Source: a bacterium (GTDB lineage Bacteria; Pseudomonadota; Alphaproteobacteria; Rickettsiales; RI-342). Taken from it: a stretch of DNA of 64,000 nt. Below are positions 41,345 to 51,480 of this stretch, in pieces (positions within the stretch are counted from its first letter, which is position 1; every line of letters starts with the position of its first letter). Both the position numbers and the translations under genes were made by a program. The notes under the pieces were generated by a model. The model saw only the letters and a program-made list of their open reading frames with translations. It was not told the origin of the DNA and ran no database searches. The stretch covers positions 1 to 64,000 of the forward strand of contig WGMV01000003.1 of the NCBI GenBank assembly GCA_016124905.1. Direction: 5' to 3'.

Positions 41345-42040
41345 ATGAAGAAATTATTGCTTACCACAGCGCTGATGCTGGCAGCTACGCCTGCATTTGC
41401 AAAAGAAGTCACGATCAGGGAAGTTACCGATGCCGACACAGGTAAGGCTTACTTCTCGCCGGATAAACTTACCATTCAACCCGGTGATACGGTGGTATTT
41501 GAAAACGCTCAGGATGAGATGCATGAAGTGATGTTCGTCAATGTGCCAAAGAGCGTGGACGAAATGATTATGTCACCCATGCACGAAAAGAAAGGTGATA
41601 AGTTTTCTTATACTTTCACCGTTCCCGGCACCTATCAATTCCACTGCCATCCGCATGAAGCACTGGGCATGAAAGGCACGCTGATTGTAGGCCATGCCTC
41701 CAAACCCGGTGAAACAAAATCAATGGATCACCACAAACTCTCGCAAAAACTTGAAAAAGGTGAAACCGCAGGCGGTGTAAACACCCCGGCTGGCTCCAAG
41801 GCATTTGCGGGTGGCGATGTGGCGGCAACGGGTAAAGTGGTGAGTGTGGATGCTGGCAAGCATACCATCAAGCTGAAACATGACCCGATCAAGGCTCTCG
41901 GCTGGCCGACAATGACCATGAACTTCACTGCCGATAGCGATGTTGATCTGTCCGGTGTGAAGGAAGGCGATGCCGTGTCATTCACTCTCAAACCGCAAGG
42001 CAAAGATGATTACACTATAAACTCGATCAAGAAGAACTAA
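41345..42040 (+). CDS. Cupredoxin fused to a CusF-like copper-binding domain
   Basis: 231 aa with strong AAAGGAG ribosome site. After a signal peptide (LLLTTALMLAATPAFA), residues about 20-120 form a plastocyanin-like domain with type 1 copper ligands His (EMHEVMF), Cys, His and Met (FHCHPHEALGM). A linker (KPGETKSMDHHKLSQKLEKG) leads to residues about 160-228, a CusF-like barrel with the characteristic WPTMTMNF and VDLSGVKEGDAVSFTL. It is likely a periplasmic copper carrier that may accept Cu(I) in the CusF part and act as an electron carrier in the other. Confidence 0.85.
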   Translation: MKKLLLTTALMLAATPAFAKEVTIREVTDADTGKAYFSPDKLTIQPGDTVVFENAQDEMHEVMFVNVPKSVDEMIMSPMHEKKGDKFSYTFTVPGTYQFHCHPHEALGMKGTLIVGHASKPGETKSMDHHKLSQKLEKGETAGGVNTPAGSKAFAGGDVAATGKVVSVDAGKHTIKLKHDPIKALGWPTMTMNFTADSDVDLSGVKEGDAVSFTLKPQGKDDYTINSIKKN

Positions 42041-42157: not shown

Positions 42158-42670
42158 ATGTCACCCTATATCCGTTTTCTATTAATGATTTTAACATCCA
42201 CGCTTGTCATGTTCGGGCTTACCTACCTCAATAGCTATCAGGCCGATCATGTGTTTTTTAGTGAAACACGGCTTTACATGGCGTTTTTAATGGGAGCGGC
42301 GATGGCGGTGGTCATGCTGAGTTTCATGCTGGGCATGTACAAGGATAAAAAGCGCAATCTGACTATTTACGCGGGTAGCGCCGTTATTTTCGTTGCGGCA
42401 TTGTTTCTGGTGCGGAGCCAAACCACCGTGGACGATACATCCTACATGCGGGCGATGATACCCCATCACTCTATTGCCATTTTGACCAGCGAACGAGCCG
42501 GAATCAAAGACTTACGGGTGCGTGAACTGGCGGATGGAATTATCAAAGCCCAGCGCAAGGAAATCGATGAAATGAAATGGCTAATAAACGATATTGAAGC
42601 CAACGGCCTCGCCTCCACCCAAGATAAAGCGCAGGAAAGGCCAGTGCCGGAATTTGAAGAAAAGTTGTGA
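42158..42670 (+). CDS. DUF305 membrane protein
   Basis: 170 aa, strong AAGGAGG site. Three hydrophobic helices (FLLMILTSTLVMFGLTYL, LYMAFLMGAAMAVVMLSFML, IYAGSAVIFVAALFLV) precede a DUF305-type region (DTSYMRAMIPHHSIAILTSE and LADGIIKAQRKEIDEMKWLI). The MIPHHS motif is the family's likely metal-binding site. DUF305 proteins are common in copper and silver resistance islands; molecular role not established. Confidence 0.85.
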   Translation: MSPYIRFLLMILTSTLVMFGLTYLNSYQADHVFFSETRLYMAFLMGAAMAVVMLSFMLGMYKDKKRNLTIYAGSAVIFVAALFLVRSQTTVDDTSYMRAMIPHHSIAILTSERAGIKDLRVRELADGIIKAQRKEIDEMKWLINDIEANGLASTQDKAQERPVPEFEEKL

Positions 42671-42695: not shown

Positions 42696-42724
42696 AGCCC
42701 CTCAAAATATGAGGGGCTTTTTTT
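42696..42724 (+). terminator. Rho-independent terminator after the DUF305 gene
   Basis: Eight-bp stem AGCCCCTC / GAGGGGCT (42696-42703, 42711-42718), loop AAAATAT, followed by seven T. It separates the cop unit from the MerR-controlled unit. Confidence 0.9.
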
Positions 42725-42728
42725 GATA

Positions 42729-42760
42729 TTGACCTTAGAGTGTGCTCCAAGGTGTAAGAT
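42729..42760 (+). promoter_or_regulatory. MerR-type promoter/operator of the second metal unit
   Basis: -35 TTGACC (42729-42734) and -10 TAAGAT (42755-42760) are separated by 20 bp, and the spacer holds the dyad ACCTTAGAG-TGTG-CTCCAAGGT (42732-42753). An over-long spacer with an ACCTT...AAGGT dyad is the signature of promoters untwisted by MerR/CueR-type activators. The regulator gene itself starts 20 bp downstream, so autoregulation of the whole unit is expected. Confidence 0.8.
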
Positions 42761-42779: not shown

Positions 42780-43817
42780 ATGAAAGAATTGACCATAGGA
42801 AAATTAGCGGAAATAACCGGCACTACGGCGGATACGCTGCGCTATTACGAGAAGATGAAGCTGCTTAAAGCATCTTCACGCTCACGCGCCGGATATAGGC
42901 TATACGAGGAAAATGCAGTGAGCGTTGTTCGTTTTATTCGCGGAGCAAAAGCGTTGGGATTTACGCTGGTTGAGATTCGCCAACTACTCACTTTAAGCAC
43001 CTCCGATCAGGCCAGTTGCGCGGAAGTATTGAAACATACAGAGGGCAAAATCATCGAAGCCGAAGCTAAAATCCTTGAACTCAAGGCAATCAAAAAGGTT
43101 CTTTCTCAACTGGTGAAGGCTTGCCCCGGTGACAGCACGAGCGCGAAAGCCTGTCCGATACTTGACCACATCCAGAAAAAAGCAAAATCACTGGTAATTC
43201 TGGCAGTGGCAATAGCATCCTTCAGTCTGCCTGGGGAAGCAGAATCCAAGCCTATTTCCTATGTTGATGGCTTCATGGTGATGCAGGAAAATGACGAAAC
43301 CGGCCATACCCTTTCAATGGATTACACCATCGATCCCAAGCTCGCGCTGGGGCTATATGCAAAGAAAGAAAGCGGAGATAAAGATTTTACGACTATCGGC
43401 CCGCAGGTGAATTATCTGGTCAAGCGTTGGAATATGCCGGACGGTCAGGCCAATATTTTCAGCATGACCGGCGCTGGCGTATCGCATTGGAAGGGTGACG
43501 ATGAATTTTCCGCATGGACGGGTATTCTGGCTGATTACGAGACTCGCCGTATTTTTACTTCCTACGAAATTCGCGGCATGTTCGCGGGCGATTTTGAGAA
43601 ATCGATATGGCAGCGGGCGCGTGTTGGATTTGCGCCATATCTTGCGAACTACGATGACTTAAATACTTGGTTCATGGTGCAGGTCGATTATCACCCGGCC
43701 AAGGAAGATAATGTGGTGGTTACGCCACTGGTGCGCTTCTTCTACAAAACAACGCTGGTGGAAGCTGGTTACAGCAGCAACGATCACGTCATGTTTAACT
43801 GGGTATTACAATTTTAA
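42780..43817 (+). CDS. MerR-family metal regulator fused to an outer-membrane-barrel-like protein
   Basis: 345 aa in one frame. Residues 1-70 are a MerR winged helix (IGKLAEITGTTADTLRYYEK, AGYRLYEENAVSVVRFI), 75-115 the dimerisation helix, with metal-site Cys residues in SCAEV and ACPGDSTSAKACPI as in Hg/Zn/Cu MerR proteins. Such regulators normally end near residue 135. Here the frame continues with KKAKSLVILAVAIASFSLPGEAES, which reads as a complete signal peptide (quoted core SLVILAVAIASFSLPGEA), and about 200 residues of alternating beta strands ending FNWVLQF, an outer-membrane barrel end. No ATG or TTG lies in frame at the junction; GTG inside the hydrophobic core is a poor start. Either a real fusion, an unusual internal start, or a lost frameshift/stop. 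Confidence 0.85.
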   Translation: MKELTIGKLAEITGTTADTLRYYEKMKLLKASSRSRAGYRLYEENAVSVVRFIRGAKALGFTLVEIRQLLTLSTSDQASCAEVLKHTEGKIIEAEAKILELKAIKKVLSQLVKACPGDSTSAKACPILDHIQKKAKSLVILAVAIASFSLPGEAESKPISYVDGFMVMQENDETGHTLSMDYTIDPKLALGLYAKKESGDKDFTTIGPQVNYLVKRWNMPDGQANIFSMTGAGVSHWKGDDEFSAWTGILADYETRRIFTSYEIRGMFAGDFEKSIWQRARVGFAPYLANYDDLNTWFMVQVDYHPAKEDNVVVTPLVRFFYKTTLVEAGYSSNDHVMFNWVLQF

Positions 43818-43826
43818 GGAGGAATT

Positions 43827-44111
43827 ATGCGAAAATTTTTACTCACCACCGTTATTTTTTCACTCATGGCCGGTGCCGCCAATGCGGAAACCATCAAGGC
43901 TTCCGTCACCGGCTTGGTATGTTCTTTCTGCGCCACCGGCATAGAAAAGACCTTCAAGGCTGAATCCGCTGTTGAATCGGTGCATGTGGATTTGGAAACC
44001 AAACTGGTGACAATCGGAACGAAGGAAGGCCAAACGATGGATGACGCCACTGTAACCAAGTTGATTACGGATGCCGGTTACACAGTCACCGGAATTACGC
44101 GAGAAAAATAA
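43827..44111 (+). CDS. MerP-like periplasmic HMA-domain metal chaperone
   Basis: 94 aa, AAGGAGG site. Signal peptide (LLTTVIFSLMAGAANA) and one heavy-metal-associated domain with GLVCSFCATGIEK (metal-binding CxxC) and the usual beta-alpha-beta pattern (VESVHVDLETKLVTIG, ITDAGYTVTGI). It probably binds Cu(I) or Hg(II) in the periplasm. Its stop overlaps the next ATG by one base. Confidence 0.9.
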   Translation: MRKFLLTTVIFSLMAGAANAETIKASVTGLVCSFCATGIEKTFKAESAVESVHVDLETKLVTIGTKEGQTMDDATVTKLITDAGYTVTGITREK

Positions 44112-44494
44112 TGCATCCTGAAAAACGCGCAAGCCACGGCATAGTTTCAACGATTGCTCTTTTTGGCTCATTCAGCACGCTGTTTTGCTGCGCATTACCG
44201 GCATTGCTGGTTTCTATCGGAGCGGGCGCGGCAGTAATCGGACTGGTAAGCACGTTCCCGCAACTGATCTGGCTATCGGAACATAAGGTGGGGTTGTTCA
44301 TCTTCGCGGGTATCATGCTCACCCTTTCCGGGACGATGCGCTACCTCACGCGCAATGCGCCATGCCCCGCCGACCCAGCAAAAGCCAAAGCCTGTATGCG
44401 GATGCGCCGCTTTAGCCTCGGTATCTTCCTGTTTTCACTCGCCATGTACTCCGTAGGCTTCTATTTCGCCTTTATCGCAGCTAAACTAATGTAA
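44111..44494 (+). CDS. MerT-like membrane metal transporter
   Basis: 127 aa with three to four hydrophobic helices. The first holds a Cys pair ([20 protein letters not shown]), as in MerT, and a second Cys pair lies in a loop ([15 protein letters not shown]). MerT takes metal from MerP into the cytoplasm. Here no MerA reductase follows; a P-type ATPase does, so the role may be copper handling or transfer between the periplasmic chaperone and the pump. Start overlaps the MerP-like gene. Confidence 0.75.
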
Positions 44495-44498
44495 AGCC

Positions 44499-46883
44499 AT
44501 GAAACACGATCACCACCAAGCCTCAGCTACCTATACCGTGAAAGACTTGGTATGCGGTATGAATGTTGACCCGGAAAAAGCGCATCATCATACCCGCTTA
44601 GGCGATAACGATTATTACTTTTGTGGCAAGGGTTGCTTGGAAAAATTCACGGCCAATCCTAACCAATATACCCAGCCTGTTAAAGCGCATGGAAGTTGCT
44701 GCCACGGTCATCACAAGCCAGCGCCTACAGTACAGCCCGCCATCGGCAAGGATGTTATTTACACTTGCCCGATGCACCCGGAAGTACGGCAAATCGGCTC
44801 CGGCACATGCCCGAAATGCGGCATGGCGCTTGAACCTGAAAACATCGCTGAAAGCGAAGGCGATGACCCGGAATTAAAAGATATGACACGTCGCTTCTGG
44901 ATTGCGGCGGTGTTATCCATCCCCTTACTGTTCTTAGGCATGGGAGCGCACATCGTCAGTGGCAGCTTGCATGAATTCCTTATGAGCCGAACAGCGATAT
45001 GGCTCCAGCTGGCGTTATCCACACCAGTAGTGCTGTGGTGCGGTTGGCCGTTCTATGAGCGCTTTTGGCAATCGCTGAAGCATAAAAGCCCTAACATGTT
45101 TACGCTGATCGGCCTAGGTGTGGGCGTGGCCTATATTTATAGCGTTATTGTCACGCTTACTCCACAGCTGCTTGCAGGATTATTGAGTGAAGGTGTAGCG
45201 CCCGCTGTTTATTTTGAACCCGCCGCAGTGATTACGGCGCTGGTGCTGCTGGGACAAGTGCTAGAACTCAAAGCCCGCGCTCAAACATCCAGTGCTATGC
45301 GTGCGCTGCTTGATTTAGCGCCCGCCACCGCGAGGGTGATTCGTGATGGAAGGGAAGAAGATATCTCGCTGGCGGAAATACAGCAAGGCGACGTGTTGCG
45401 TGTGCGTCCCGGCGAAAAAGTGCCGGTGGATGGCGCGGTGCTGGAAGGCTCAAGCGCCATTGACCAATCCATGATTACCGGCGAGCCTGTGCCGGTGGAA
45501 AAATTCCCCGGCGATAAGGTGACGGGCGCAACCATCAACGGCACGGGTAGCTTTACCATGCGGGCAGAGCACGTCGGCAATGAAACCATGCTAGCGCAAA
45601 TTGTCGATATGGTGAGCAAAGCCCAGCGTACCCGCGCACCGATTCAACGGCTGGCCGATAAGGTTTCAGGTTATTTTGTGCCAGCGGTAATTTTAGTGGC
45701 CATCATCGCTGCTATTGTGTGGGGAGTATTCGGGCCGGAACCGCGAATTGGCTATGCCATTCTTAACGCCGTTGCGGTATTAATTATTGCTTGCCCATGC
45801 GCCTTGGGCCTTGCCACGCCTATGTCGATTATGGCCGGAACCGGCAGAGGCGCAAAAGCCGGTGTGCTGATTAAAAATGCTGAAAGCTTGGAAGGCTTTG
45901 AGAAAATAGATACGCTGATTGTCGATAAAACCGGCACCCTCACTGAGGGAAAACCTAAACTCATGTCGGTAGTGGCGGCGGCGGGCTTTGAACAAACCGA
46001 AGTGCTGGAACTTGCTGCTAGTCTCGAACGCGGCAGCGAACACCCTTTAGCAGAAGCGATTGTATCTGGCGCAACTGAAAAAGGCGCAAACCTAACCAAT
46101 GCCAGCGAATTCAAATCAATCACTGGCAAAGGCGTGACTGGCATTATCAACGGCAAAAAAGTAGCGCTGGGGAATATCGCTTTACTAGAAACTCTGGGGA
46201 TTGACGCGGCGGGCGTGAAAGGCCAGGCCGATGCATACCGGGCGCAAGGGCAAACCGCCATGTTTGTCGCCATCGATGGCAAGGCCGCAGGAATTATCAC
46301 TGTGGCCGACCCAATCAAAACAACCACCGTGGATGCCATCAAGCAGCTAAAAGCCGATGGCTTACGCGTGGTGATGTTGACCGGGGATAATAAAACAACC
46401 GCAATGGCAGTTGCCAAAAAGGTAGGCATTGAGGAAGTGGAAGCGGACGTGCTGCCCGATCAAAAAAATGCGGCAGTAAGAAAATTGCAGGAACAAGGCC
46501 GCAAAGTGGCTATGGCCGGTGATGGGATTAATGATGCTCCTGCTTTAGCACAAGCCGATGTTGGCATTGCAATGGGAACCGGCGCAGACGTGGCAATGGA
46601 GAGCGCGGGTATCACGCTCATTCAAGGGGATTTGATGGGGATTGTACGGGCAAGGCATTTGAGCCGAGCCACCATGCGGAACATACGGCAGAACCTGTTC
46701 TTTGCCTTCGTCTATAATGCGCTCGGTGTGCCGGTAGCAGCCGGTGTGCTGTATCCCTTCTTCGGGATTCTCCTAAGTCCGATTTTTGCCAGTGCTGCAA
46801 TGGCGCTTAGTTCGGTGTCCGTGATCGTGAATAGCTTGCGCTTGAGGAATATTACTCTTTTAGCGACCTATCGCACAGATTGA
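44499..46883 (+). CDS. Cu(I)-exporting P1B-type ATPase with YHS and CxxC metal-binding N-terminus
   Basis: 794 aa inner-membrane pump moving Cu(I) out of the cytoplasm. Residues 13-50 are a YHS domain ([27 protein letters not shown]). Residues about 87-115 form a heavy-metal-binding segment ([20 protein letters not shown]). The usual HMA domains are absent. The core shows TGEP as [11 protein letters not shown], the ion site [10 protein letters not shown], phosphorylation site [20 protein letters not shown], and [20 protein letters not shown]. The last helices ([27 protein letters not shown]) are the Cu(I) class signature. Last gene of the MerR-controlled unit. Confidence 0.94.
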
Positions 46884-46981: not shown

Positions 46982-47045
46982 AAAAATAGACAAGGCCGTG
47001 TAGTCGGGCGTTGCCCTCCGGCCCGCACCAACCTTGTCGATTTTT
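46982..47045. repeat. 64-bp structured inverted repeat upstream of ardA
   Basis: AAAAATAGACAAGG (46982-46995) pairs with CCTTGTCGATTTTT (47032-47045), 13 of 14 positions, and the 36 bases between contain a second stem CGGGC/GCCCG. The outer A- and T-rich ends resemble a bidirectional terminator, which would close the ATPase transcript; the branched inside is more than a plain terminator. Confidence 0.65.
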
Positions 47046-47081
47046 CCTTCCGTTTGCACACCCCCTGTTCGCCACGAGGCA

Positions 47082-47101
47082 GGGTTGCATGCATGCAACC
47101 C
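47082..47101. promoter_or_regulatory. Perfect 20-bp palindrome before ardA
   Basis: GGGTTGCATGCATGCAACCC, fully self-complementary, ending 22 bp before the ardA start. A perfect dyad with a TGCATGCA centre suggests a dimeric repressor operator; the -10 region of ardA could overlap it. Confidence 0.7.
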
Positions 47102-47123
47102 ATTCTTAATTCAGGAGGTAGTG

Positions 47124-47630
47124 ATGACACGGTTATATGCCCAGCCTTACGATATTTCGGCGAGCGGTTTCTTTTTCGAGAGCGTGGAAGAGTACCAGAG
47201 TAAGCGCCAGCAATGCCGCAATGATTACGGCGCACCGGTGGAGGAATTCGAGATTCAGTTCATCGACGGCGAGGATATGGACGCCGACCTGTTCAAATCG
47301 CTGAGAGTACATCAGGGAGATTTCGATGCGTTTTTGCAAGTTTGTGAGGACTGGAGCGATGACCAGAAAATCCGCGTCATTATCGCCGTGGGGGAATGCG
47401 GCTACCGCTTCGATCCCCGGACGGGAGACCCGGAAGACTTCGATATTGACCTGTACGAGATGGATAGCCTTAGAGAGCTTGCCTATCACTTCGTAGAGGA
47501 AGGGCTGTTTGGTGACATCCCGGAGCGTATCCACTGCTATCTGGATTATGACGCTATCGCCCGCGATTTAAGTATGGATTACAGCGAAACCAGCATCGGC
47601 GGCCAAAACCTCATTTACCGCTGCGGGTAA
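47124..47630 (+). CDS. ardA: Antirestriction protein ArdA
   Basis: 168 aa, start at a strong AGGAGGT site; the frame is open further upstream but crosses the palindrome. ArdA proteins are acidic DNA mimics that block type I restriction during transfer. The sequence is very acidic and fits the alphaproteobacterial ArdA pattern: YDISASGFFFESVEEYQ, EEFEIQFIDGEDMDADL, IIAVGECGYRFD, LAYHFVEEGLFGDIPE, YLDYDAIARDL, and the end QNLIYRCG. Convergent with the relaxase gene. Confidence 0.9.
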   Translation: MTRLYAQPYDISASGFFFESVEEYQSKRQQCRNDYGAPVEEFEIQFIDGEDMDADLFKSLRVHQGDFDAFLQVCEDWSDDQKIRVIIAVGECGYRFDPRTGDPEDFDIDLYEMDSLRELAYHFVEEGLFGDIPERIHCYLDYDAIARDLSMDYSETSIGGQNLIYRCG

Positions 47631-47636
47631 AAAGTC

Positions 47637-47665
47637 GCCTGTTCCCCCCAATCGGGGGAACAGGC
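47637..47665 (-). terminator. Strong hairpin between ardA and the relaxase gene
   Basis: Perfect 12-bp stem 47637-47648 with 47654-47665 (GCCTGTTCCCCC / GGGGGAACAGGC), five-base loop. On the minus strand it is followed by GACTTTTTA, so it best serves the relaxase transcript, and may also stop ardA transcription. Confidence 0.7.
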
Positions 47666-47672
47666 ACACCGC

Positions 47673-48977
47673 TTACATCCCCGGTTCAAAGCTGGGGCCG
47701 GAGCGCTTGCGTTTCGGAGGATTCGGACCGGTTCTCTGCGGTTTTTCTATCTCCGAATGGATTTCCTTGGTTATGCCTTCATAGCGCCCGATTTCCTTGC
47801 GGAAATCCAGAAGCAGTTCCTGATAGCCCCGGCGATATTCGATCACCCGTTCCTGCAATTCCCGGCGCATGCGTAACTGCTGTTCGATGAGCCGTTGCCG
47901 TTCTTCACGGTCACGGAGGTGGCACTGTTGCAGTTCCTGTTCATTTCTTGTGCGAATCTCGCCATATTTCCCGGTGATACGGAGCCAGATGCCTCTCAAG
48001 CCTCTCGGCATACGCGCCGACCGATTACGATCCTCCTGCTGTTTACGTTCTTTCTGTTGCGCTTCCAGATCGCGGCGCTGGTTCGTATGCATCCATTTCA
48101 TAACGGATATTTCATGGAGATAGTCTTTGTATTTCTCCTTCACCGTGGTCTTTAACTCTACAATATCGTTTCGGAATGCATCCGCCGTTTGCTTATTGAA
48201 CGCGATAAGGGTTTCGGCGACGGACGGCAGGTTGTCCGCATCGCCCAGCTTTTGCGTCAGGTCTTTCGTCTTCAGCTTGAGCATGCGACTCAGGGAATAG
48301 ATTTCTCCCTGAGTGTCCATGACCACGAAGCCGCGCTTGTCGCCTTGCGCCAAGCGAAAGCCTCTCTCATGCAGCGCATTTTCAAAGGACGAGCGGTTGT
48401 CTGCCTGTTCCCAAGCGGTTTTCAATGTCATTTTTGTCATAGCGGGATGTACCTCCGTACGTTTGGATTGTTGCCATTCTTCATGGGTGAAATTGTTCGG
48501 GTCGCGTAAGCTGTGGTCGATGAAGCCCTGCGGCAGTTCCCAGCCGTATTGCAGGTAAAGCCGCTTCGAGAGATCGTTCAGCTTGCGCTTGTAGTGGGGC
48601 AGGTTTACTGCCTTCATAGTGCGGGCATTGATGCGCGACCAGATGCAATGGGCATGGCGGCGGCCATCTTTCTCATGGAATACCACCACCCGCGGCTGGC
48701 CTTTCAGCCCCATCGTTTTCTCAATCTTTGCCAGCGTTGTTTCAAAATACTCGACCGGGGCGGATTCATGGGCGGGCGGGTTGAGCGACACCGAGAACAG
48801 GTATTGTTTGCAGCGTGTTCCCCGGCTGGCGGCATAAATCTCATCCAATGCCCCGCGCACCGTATCGGAGAGAAAGCCCGATACTTCATGCACTTCTACA
48901 TGCTCGTTATCGTGTACGTTCAGAAGATGCGCCGCCATTTGCCTTGCGCCGCCGCGCTGGTTTCCTTCAAGAATCAT
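47673..48977 (-). CDS. Relaxase / mobilization nuclease (VirD2-MobA superfamily)
   Basis: 434-aa DNA nickase for conjugal mobilization. The N-terminus MILEGNQRGGARQMAAHLLN and the HEKDGRRHAHCIWSRIN block at about residues 100-116, which carries the three-His metal site, fit a relaxase family common in alphaproteobacterial mobile elements. A clear catalytic Tyr is not obvious in the N-terminal segment. The second half is a long basic coiled coil (QRLIEQQLRMRRELQERVIE). Its start overlaps the end of the mobC-like gene by 11 bp. An oriT should lie nearby but was not identified. Confidence 0.88.
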   Translation of the reverse strand: MILEGNQRGGARQMAAHLLNVHDNEHVEVHEVSGFLSDTVRGALDEIYAASRGTRCKQYLFSVSLNPPAHESAPVEYFETTLAKIEKTMGLKGQPRVVVFHEKDGRRHAHCIWSRINARTMKAVNLPHYKRKLNDLSKRLYLQYGWELPQGFIDHSLRDPNNFTHEEWQQSKRTEVHPAMTKMTLKTAWEQADNRSSFENALHERGFRLAQGDKRGFVVMDTQGEIYSLSRMLKLKTKDLTQKLGDADNLPSVAETLIAFNKQTADAFRNDIVELKTTVKEKYKDYLHEISVMKWMHTNQRRDLEAQQKERKQQEDRNRSARMPRGLRGIWLRITGKYGEIRTRNEQELQQCHLRDREERQRLIEQQLRMRRELQERVIEYRRGYQELLLDFRKEIGRYEGITKEIHSEIEKPQRTGPNPPKRKRSGPSFEPGM

Positions 48978-49356
48978 CGCGGCCTCCTTGACTGAGTGCC
49001 TTCATCAGCAGGGAGCGGATGGAGCGCACCTCACGGCAGGCGTCATGCAGGTGCTGTTCCGTATCTGGCGTGACCGGCAGGGAGCCGCTGTTTGCAGCCT
49101 TTGCCAGTTGGTTGAGATTAGCGGCAAGGCGGGATGCGCCAAGCGCAGTAAGAAGTTGCGCCAATAGCGTCTGATCCGCCACTGGGCGGTGCAGGCGGCG
49201 TTTGCGTGGCGTGGGCCTGTCGAACAGCCGGGAGCGGATATAAGCTCCCAGCGACATATTTCCAGCCTCCTGTTCCAGTTTCGCCCGTTCCTCAAAAGAC
49301 AGGCGCAAGCAGAACGGCGCGGGAGCCGCCCGCTTTTTATCGTGGGATTCGGTCAT
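48967..49356 (-). CDS. MobC-like relaxosome accessory protein
   Basis: 129 aa from ATG 49356 (AGGA eight bases upstream); the frame extends to 49452 without a good site. A ribbon-helix-helix-like start (FCLRLSFEERAKLEQEAGNMS, quoted core LRLSFEERAKLEQEA; AYIRSRLF) and LGASRLAANLNQLAKAANSG match plasmid mobilization proteins of the MobC type that help the relaxase open oriT. Co-transcribed with the relaxase. Confidence 0.85.
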   Translation of the reverse strand: MTESHDKKRAAPAPFCLRLSFEERAKLEQEAGNMSLGAYIRSRLFDRPTPRKRRLHRPVADQTLLAQLLTALGASRLAANLNQLAKAANSGSLPVTPDTEQHLHDACREVRSIRSLLMKALSQGGRDDS

Positions 49357-49435
49357 GGGTGTGTCCTGATATATGGAAAGAAAATAAAGCAGCCGCACCG
49401 CCAAAGTGGGCGGGGGCATGGGGTAAGGTGCCAAA

Positions 49436-49467
49436 AAGCAAAAGCCGGGCATTTTTATGCCCGGCTT
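49436..49467 (-). terminator. Rho-independent terminator downstream of mnmC
   Basis: Perfect 11-bp stem 49442-49452 with 49457-49467 (AAGCCGGGCAT / ATGCCCGGCTT), TTTT/AAAA loop, followed on the minus strand by TTGCTTTTT. It closes transcription coming from mnmC and lies close to the right end of the mobile element. Confidence 0.85.
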
Positions 49468-51403: not shown

Positions 51404-51480
51404 TGGTCGGGGTGAGAGGATTCGAACCTCCGGCCTCTACGTCCCGAACGTAGCGCGCTACCAGACTGCGCCACACCCCG
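51404..51480 (-). tRNA. tRNA-Pro (CGG)
   Basis: 77 nt including CCA. Acceptor CGGGGTG/CACCCCG, anticodon arm CTACG-TTCGGGA-CGTAG (anticodon CGG, reads CCG), T arm GAGGTTCGAATCCTC intact. Confidence 0.95.

Follow-up and report, generated by a model that had tools for sequence, protein, structure and literature searches.

Our analysis of the window, a stretch of 64,000 nucleotides of bacterial DNA, revealed a gene that joins a MerR-family metal sensor, a signal-peptide-like segment and a beta-barrel-type domain of about 190 aa, in that order, in a single chain. The fusion is conserved and unusual, yet both of its parts are of known kinds, and it does not amount to a new system. A cytoplasmic DNA-binding sensor and an outer-membrane protein have different destinations, and their conservation in one chain forces cleavage, tethering or a hidden start of translation. 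We favor, with a probability of roughly 0.55, the reading that the gene encodes a polyprotein precursor, of which the barrel would be exported and then released by signal-peptidase cleavage, while the MerR part would be left inside the cell, free or membrane-tethered. The features of the region are collected in Table 1.

Table 1. Features of the fused gene and its surroundings in the window.
Feature	Position	Strand	Basis
Intrinsic-terminator-like hairpin AGCCCCTC...GAGGGGCT with T run, at the end of the upstream cop/DUF305 genes	42696..42724	+	by eye
MerR-type promoter/operator: TTGACC -35, 20-bp spacer within ACCTTAGAGTGTGCTCCAAGGT dyad, TAAGAT -10	42729..42760	+	conservation, genome scan
MerR-family metal-sensor half, residues 1-131	42780..43172	+	Pfam, 4ua1 alignment, dN/dS
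Basic MerR tail QKKAKS, putative signal-peptide n-region	43173..43190	+	matches C-terminus of unfused MerR (HISKKAKP, then stop)
Hydrophobic core and c-region LVILAVAIASFSLPGEAES, A-x-S / A-x-A cleavage motif before KPIS	43191..43247	+	motif, hydropathy
Outer-membrane beta-barrel-like domain ending FNWVLQF, with stop codon	43248..43817	+	C-terminal signature, dN/dS, low-confidence fold model
MerP-like periplasmic HMA protein	43827..44111	+	next after barrel in every neighbourhood checked
MerT-like inner-membrane protein, CCALP motif	44111..44494	+	assigned from motif and context
CopA-type P1B ATPase	44499..46883	+	domain search and neighbourhood comparison

The gene is a single uninterrupted open reading frame (42780-43817, forward strand) of 345 aa from ATG, free of stop codons and frameshifts. 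Residues ~132-156 of its product comprise a basic stretch, a hydrophobic stretch and an A-x-A/S motif, and residues ~157-345 are rich in predicted beta structure up to the C-terminal FNWVLQF. The in-frame fusion proposed by an earlier, sequence-only reading of the window is real, as the frame is open here and the same fusion occurs at L014, L015, L016, L022 and L024. That reading had allowed for an indel at the junction or for homologues that are never fused; the comparison revealed the same in-frame joint at these five further loci. Since the architecture recurs there, in four other genomes, a local sequencing error does not account for the fusion. The window does come from a draft assembly of 47 contigs, in which an error might have deleted a stop/start pair between two genes; six distinct loci, among them MAGs of two separately named deposits, and two fused copies inside one genome make the chance of such an error negligible, and assembly or read error was rejected.

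A search with the C-terminal part alone, as that reading had suggested, retrieved homologues in 33 of the 344 genomes of the order and, outside it, in 17 genomes of a class-wide draw and one more of a phylum-wide draw. Nearly all of them stand alone in open frames of about 205-270 aa, and most carry their own signal peptide. The fused form was encountered among these homologues at six loci in five genomes from three families of the order: the window, L014 and L015 (both copies of UBA6178, G325), L016 (one of three copies in MAG 336R, G246), L022 (G321) and L024 (G249). The fused open frames measure 347-374 aa, and their MerR half belongs to the same subfamily as that of the window. Literature searches confined to open-access papers yielded no fusion of MerR to an exported protein.

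The MerR part has a length of about 131 aa, in place of the earlier estimate of about 135. It matches the Pfam families MerR_1 (1e-14) and MerR-DNA-bind (8e-15), with scores of 54.7 and 55.6 bits against cut-offs of 21.6 and 25.4 for the helix-turn-helix and DNA-binding domains, respectively; these matches are confined to the first ~111 residues, and Pfam gave no match in the protein beyond the MerR region. Among solved structures, B. megaterium MerR (4ua1, E 4e-22) comes closest; C80, C115 and C125 align with its three-cysteine triad, which we take to be the metal ligands of that protein. The NCBIfam models for metal class reached no equivalog cut-off, the nearest being ZntR (124 bits vs a cut-off of 143); the metal may be a soft divalent ion such as Hg, Cd, Pb or Zn, or Cu.

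Directly upstream of the fused gene, a promoter with an internal dyad reads TTGACC-ttagagtgtgctccaaggtg-TAAGAT. Its 20-bp spacer falls in the over-long range (19-20 bp) typical of MerR promoters. The operator that had been noticed just ahead of the gene was borne out by a pattern search (1 match observed, 0 expected by shuffling) and by a scan of the 2.36-Mb genome, where it is the only zero-mismatch match, and a MerR-type operator is kept before all six fused loci and three unfused ones. The window genome and G321 each encode one other recognizable MerR protein; because there is only this one, the fused MerR is the natural partner of the operator. A DUF305 membrane protein (42158-42670) lies between a cupredoxin gene and the operator in the window, and a YHS/TRASH-like protein occupies its place at L014 (4073-4483) and L015. 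At 41345-42040, one protein combines a plastocyanin-like cupredoxin with a CusF domain, a further periplasmic fusion in the cluster.

At L017, L018 and L021, from the same order, and at L093, from outside it, MerR and barrel are encoded by two genes of the same kinds that touch or overlap each other. At L017 and L018 the stop codon of MerR overlaps the barrel ATG (CCATGAAA), at L021 it stands just ahead of that ATG (AAGTGAATATG), and at L093 the barrel ATG precedes the end of the MerR gene by about 14 bases. Being the more widely spread, the unfused state is presumably ancestral. Unfused MerR proteins end in HISKKAKP or similar before their stop codon; in the fusions the same basic tail continues into the hydrophobic core and now appears to act as the n-region of the signal peptide. 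The start codon of the barrel, an ATG in unfused relatives, has been lost in all six fusions. The signal peptide had been described as complete, which needs amending: a signal-like segment is present, its n-region is the MerR tail, and it has no start codon of its own.

Cleavage, internal initiation and membrane tethering had been offered as three ways out of the conflict between the halves. None of the six fusions has an in-frame ATG, GTG or TTG in the stretch from the MerR end motif to the hydrophobic core, so internal initiation of the barrel is unlikely and a canonical start was rejected, leaving cleavage, tethering or both. Two ATGs at FMVMQ, considered as barrel starts, would yield a barrel without a signal. 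The barrel could also be translated separately from a non-canonical Ile or Leu codon in the junction, giving two ordinary proteins; in all fusions the HI motif has ATC, ATA or ATT for its Ile, and unfused relatives start at ATG in the same stretch. We regard this as improbable, since that Ile is also found in unfused MerR proteins and pairing with the anti-Shine-Dalgarno sequence is weak to moderate in the junction (-0.1 kcal/mol in the window and in L016; the other fusions range from -3.0 to -5.7); the next gene, encoding MerP, reaches -7.3 to -12.1 kcal/mol. It is plausible that the fusion couples the levels of sensor and surface protein, as had been supposed. Such coupling is probably older than the fusion, because the genes already abut or overlap in unfused relatives.

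Between fused copies, dN/dS by the Nei-Gojobori method was 0.04-0.14 for the MerR half in most measurable pairs (0.22 in one saturated pair) and 0.02-0.15 for the barrel, several pairs being not measurable and synonymous sites being near or past saturation in many. These values point to strong purifying selection on both halves. The linker is just 25-69% identical among fusions, yet it is about as hydrophobic as the signal peptides of free-standing barrels, within their range, and retains the A-x-A/S before KPI; drift of this kind, with hydrophobicity and cleavage motif preserved, is the signal-peptide mode of evolution. Because the linker evolves like a signal peptide and both halves have low dN/dS, both halves and the export step are likely to be still functional. 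The fusion might have inactivated one half, with a working MerR and a lost barrel or the reverse, and its patchy occurrence together with additional free copies in some genomes (G246, G325) would fit this. We consider such a loss highly improbable, as dN/dS is low in both halves over near-saturated synonymous distances and no second barrel copy was found in the window genome or G321.

The barrel family shares further features of outer-membrane proteins. Of its 33 aligned members, 32 have a C-terminal Phe, with positions -3, -5 and -7 hydrophobic, and 32 lack cysteine. The Pfam outer-membrane barrel OMP_b-brl_2 is weakly matched by 6 of the 33 (best 8e-4), and PagL and BBP2 are each weakly matched by one. 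AlphaFold models, built from shallow alignments, were of low confidence, with mostly strands in the barrel (pLDDT 35) and a pLDDT of 45 for the full chain. Solved structures in the PDB and a plasmid collection gave no match for the barrel, and a viral collection gave none for the full fused protein. By these signatures the C-terminal part is a putative outer-membrane-type barrel, probably located in the outer membrane.

A single clade of all six fused barrels was rejected (p 6e-5) because the L024 barrel is distant; with L024 left out, one origin of the other five was not rejected (p 0.31). The MerR tree gave no firm rejection of one clade for all six (p 0.07-0.09). The L024 barrel is 49% identical to that of L016, and its MerR half is 88% identical to that of L016 and groups with it at 95/94; the same figures, 88% for the MerR halves and 49% for the barrels, describe L016 (fused ORF 578-1624) against L024/L074. 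Either the fusion happened two or three times, or it happened once and a different barrel half was later swapped in at the joint. Recombination seems to have taken place at this joint. The scatter of the fusion across families suggests horizontal movement of the operon.

Beside the metal operon (47034-49452) lie genes for an ArdA-like antirestriction protein, a MobA/VirD2-type relaxase and a NikA/MobC-like protein, a region that is likely part of a mobilizable element, and a tRNA-Pro is located near these mobilization genes (51404-51480).

The polyprotein reading would proceed as follows. One gene would give one precursor, whose N-terminal MerR half would fold in the cytoplasm, and the basic MerR tail with the hydrophobic segment would serve as an internal signal sequence, N-in and C-out, sending the C-terminal domain through Sec. 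The DNA-binding half has to remain inside, and the outward direction of the C-terminal part would follow from the basic residues on the N-side of the signal sequence. Signal peptidase I would cut at the kept A-x-A/S site, the freed barrel would reach the outer membrane, and the MerR part would be left facing the cytoplasm, probably with the signal remnant tying it to the inner membrane; there it would bind metal and switch on its own operator. Export, cleavage, tethering, outer-membrane location and the identity of the metal are all predictions here. The signal peptide with its cleavage motif was recognised from motif and hydropathy, and the cleavage site in the window (GEAES before K) is less clean than in the relatives (AEA or AQA before K). 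The stoichiometry also speaks against a polyprotein, since it is odd for a regulator and an outer-membrane protein to be produced 1:1. Nor is the fusion needed for barrel function, because most barrel homologues are unfused. There is a documented precedent in HCV, where signal peptidase leaves the core protein anchored by the signal peptide of the next protein, E1 (PMC5402940).

The chain may instead stay uncut. Regulators of the ToxR/CadC layout have an N-terminal DNA-binding domain, one hydrophobic segment and an extracytoplasmic C-terminal domain (PMC10269533), and the order of parts in the fused protein equals theirs, so that the signal could be a permanent anchor and the barrel-like domain an extracytoplasmic module. 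We find this rather unlikely, given that none of the six fusions has lost the A-x-A/S site, the hydrophobic core is not longer than in free signal peptides and the C-terminal outer-membrane signature is retained.

The fused protein would be a MerR laid out like a membrane-bound regulator, and the gene would offer a small system in which to see whether exporting one half affects transcription controlled by the other. Tentatively, each translation could yield one sensor, tethered at the inner membrane next to the MerP/MerT system, together with one outer-membrane barrel, so that regulator number would track barrel export and blocked export would alter the state or stability of the regulator; we hold this as a possibility somewhat short of an even chance. 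The barrel family, which is undescribed, keeps company with MerP-like and MerT-like proteins: the order barrel, MerP-like, MerT-like is constant in the neighbourhoods checked (window 43248-44494; L014-L018, L071, L074-L080), with or without MerR. The MerT-like protein of the window had no above-cut-off match in Pfam, and NCBIfam and PHROGs gave no match at all. Several barrel neighbourhoods contain genes for CopA ATPase, multicopper oxidase, CopB and cupredoxin nearby. The three proteins possibly form a metal route through outer membrane, periplasm and inner membrane; we know of no dedicated outer-membrane component assigned to MerP/MerT-like systems.

Among known systems, the free-standing barrels of the family (L002, L003, L017, L018, L021, L023, L093 and others) are homologous to the C-terminal part, about 35-76% identical to that of the window and, where checked, have the same MerP-MerT neighbours, but possess their own start codon and signal peptide and have no MerR attached. 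With the metalloregulators MerR, ZntR, CueR and CadR the window protein shares the helix-turn-helix and MerR DNA-binding domains, the three-cysteine metal triad and an operator within a 20-bp promoter spacer. It differs from them in that its C-terminus runs on into a predicted exported domain, its gene opens the operon, preceded by an operator of its own, and its MerR half reaches no equivalog cut-off. A bacterial precedent is the FbcH cytochrome b/c1 precursor found in Bradyrhizobium, which has an internal signal sequence and is cut by signal peptidase into two mature proteins. The window gene resembles it as one bacterial gene with an internal signal sequence and a predicted signal-peptidase cut, whereas it pairs a DNA-binding regulator with an outer-membrane-type protein. 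Like ToxR/CadC-type regulators, the window protein has a DNA-binding N-terminus, a single hydrophobic segment and a predicted exported domain, and a table of characterised cases of that type holds no MerR-type example (PMC10269533). Unlike them, it has a MerR-type domain that brings along a metal site in the cytoplasm, its signal looks cleavable, and its C-terminal outer-membrane-type barrel exists alone elsewhere.
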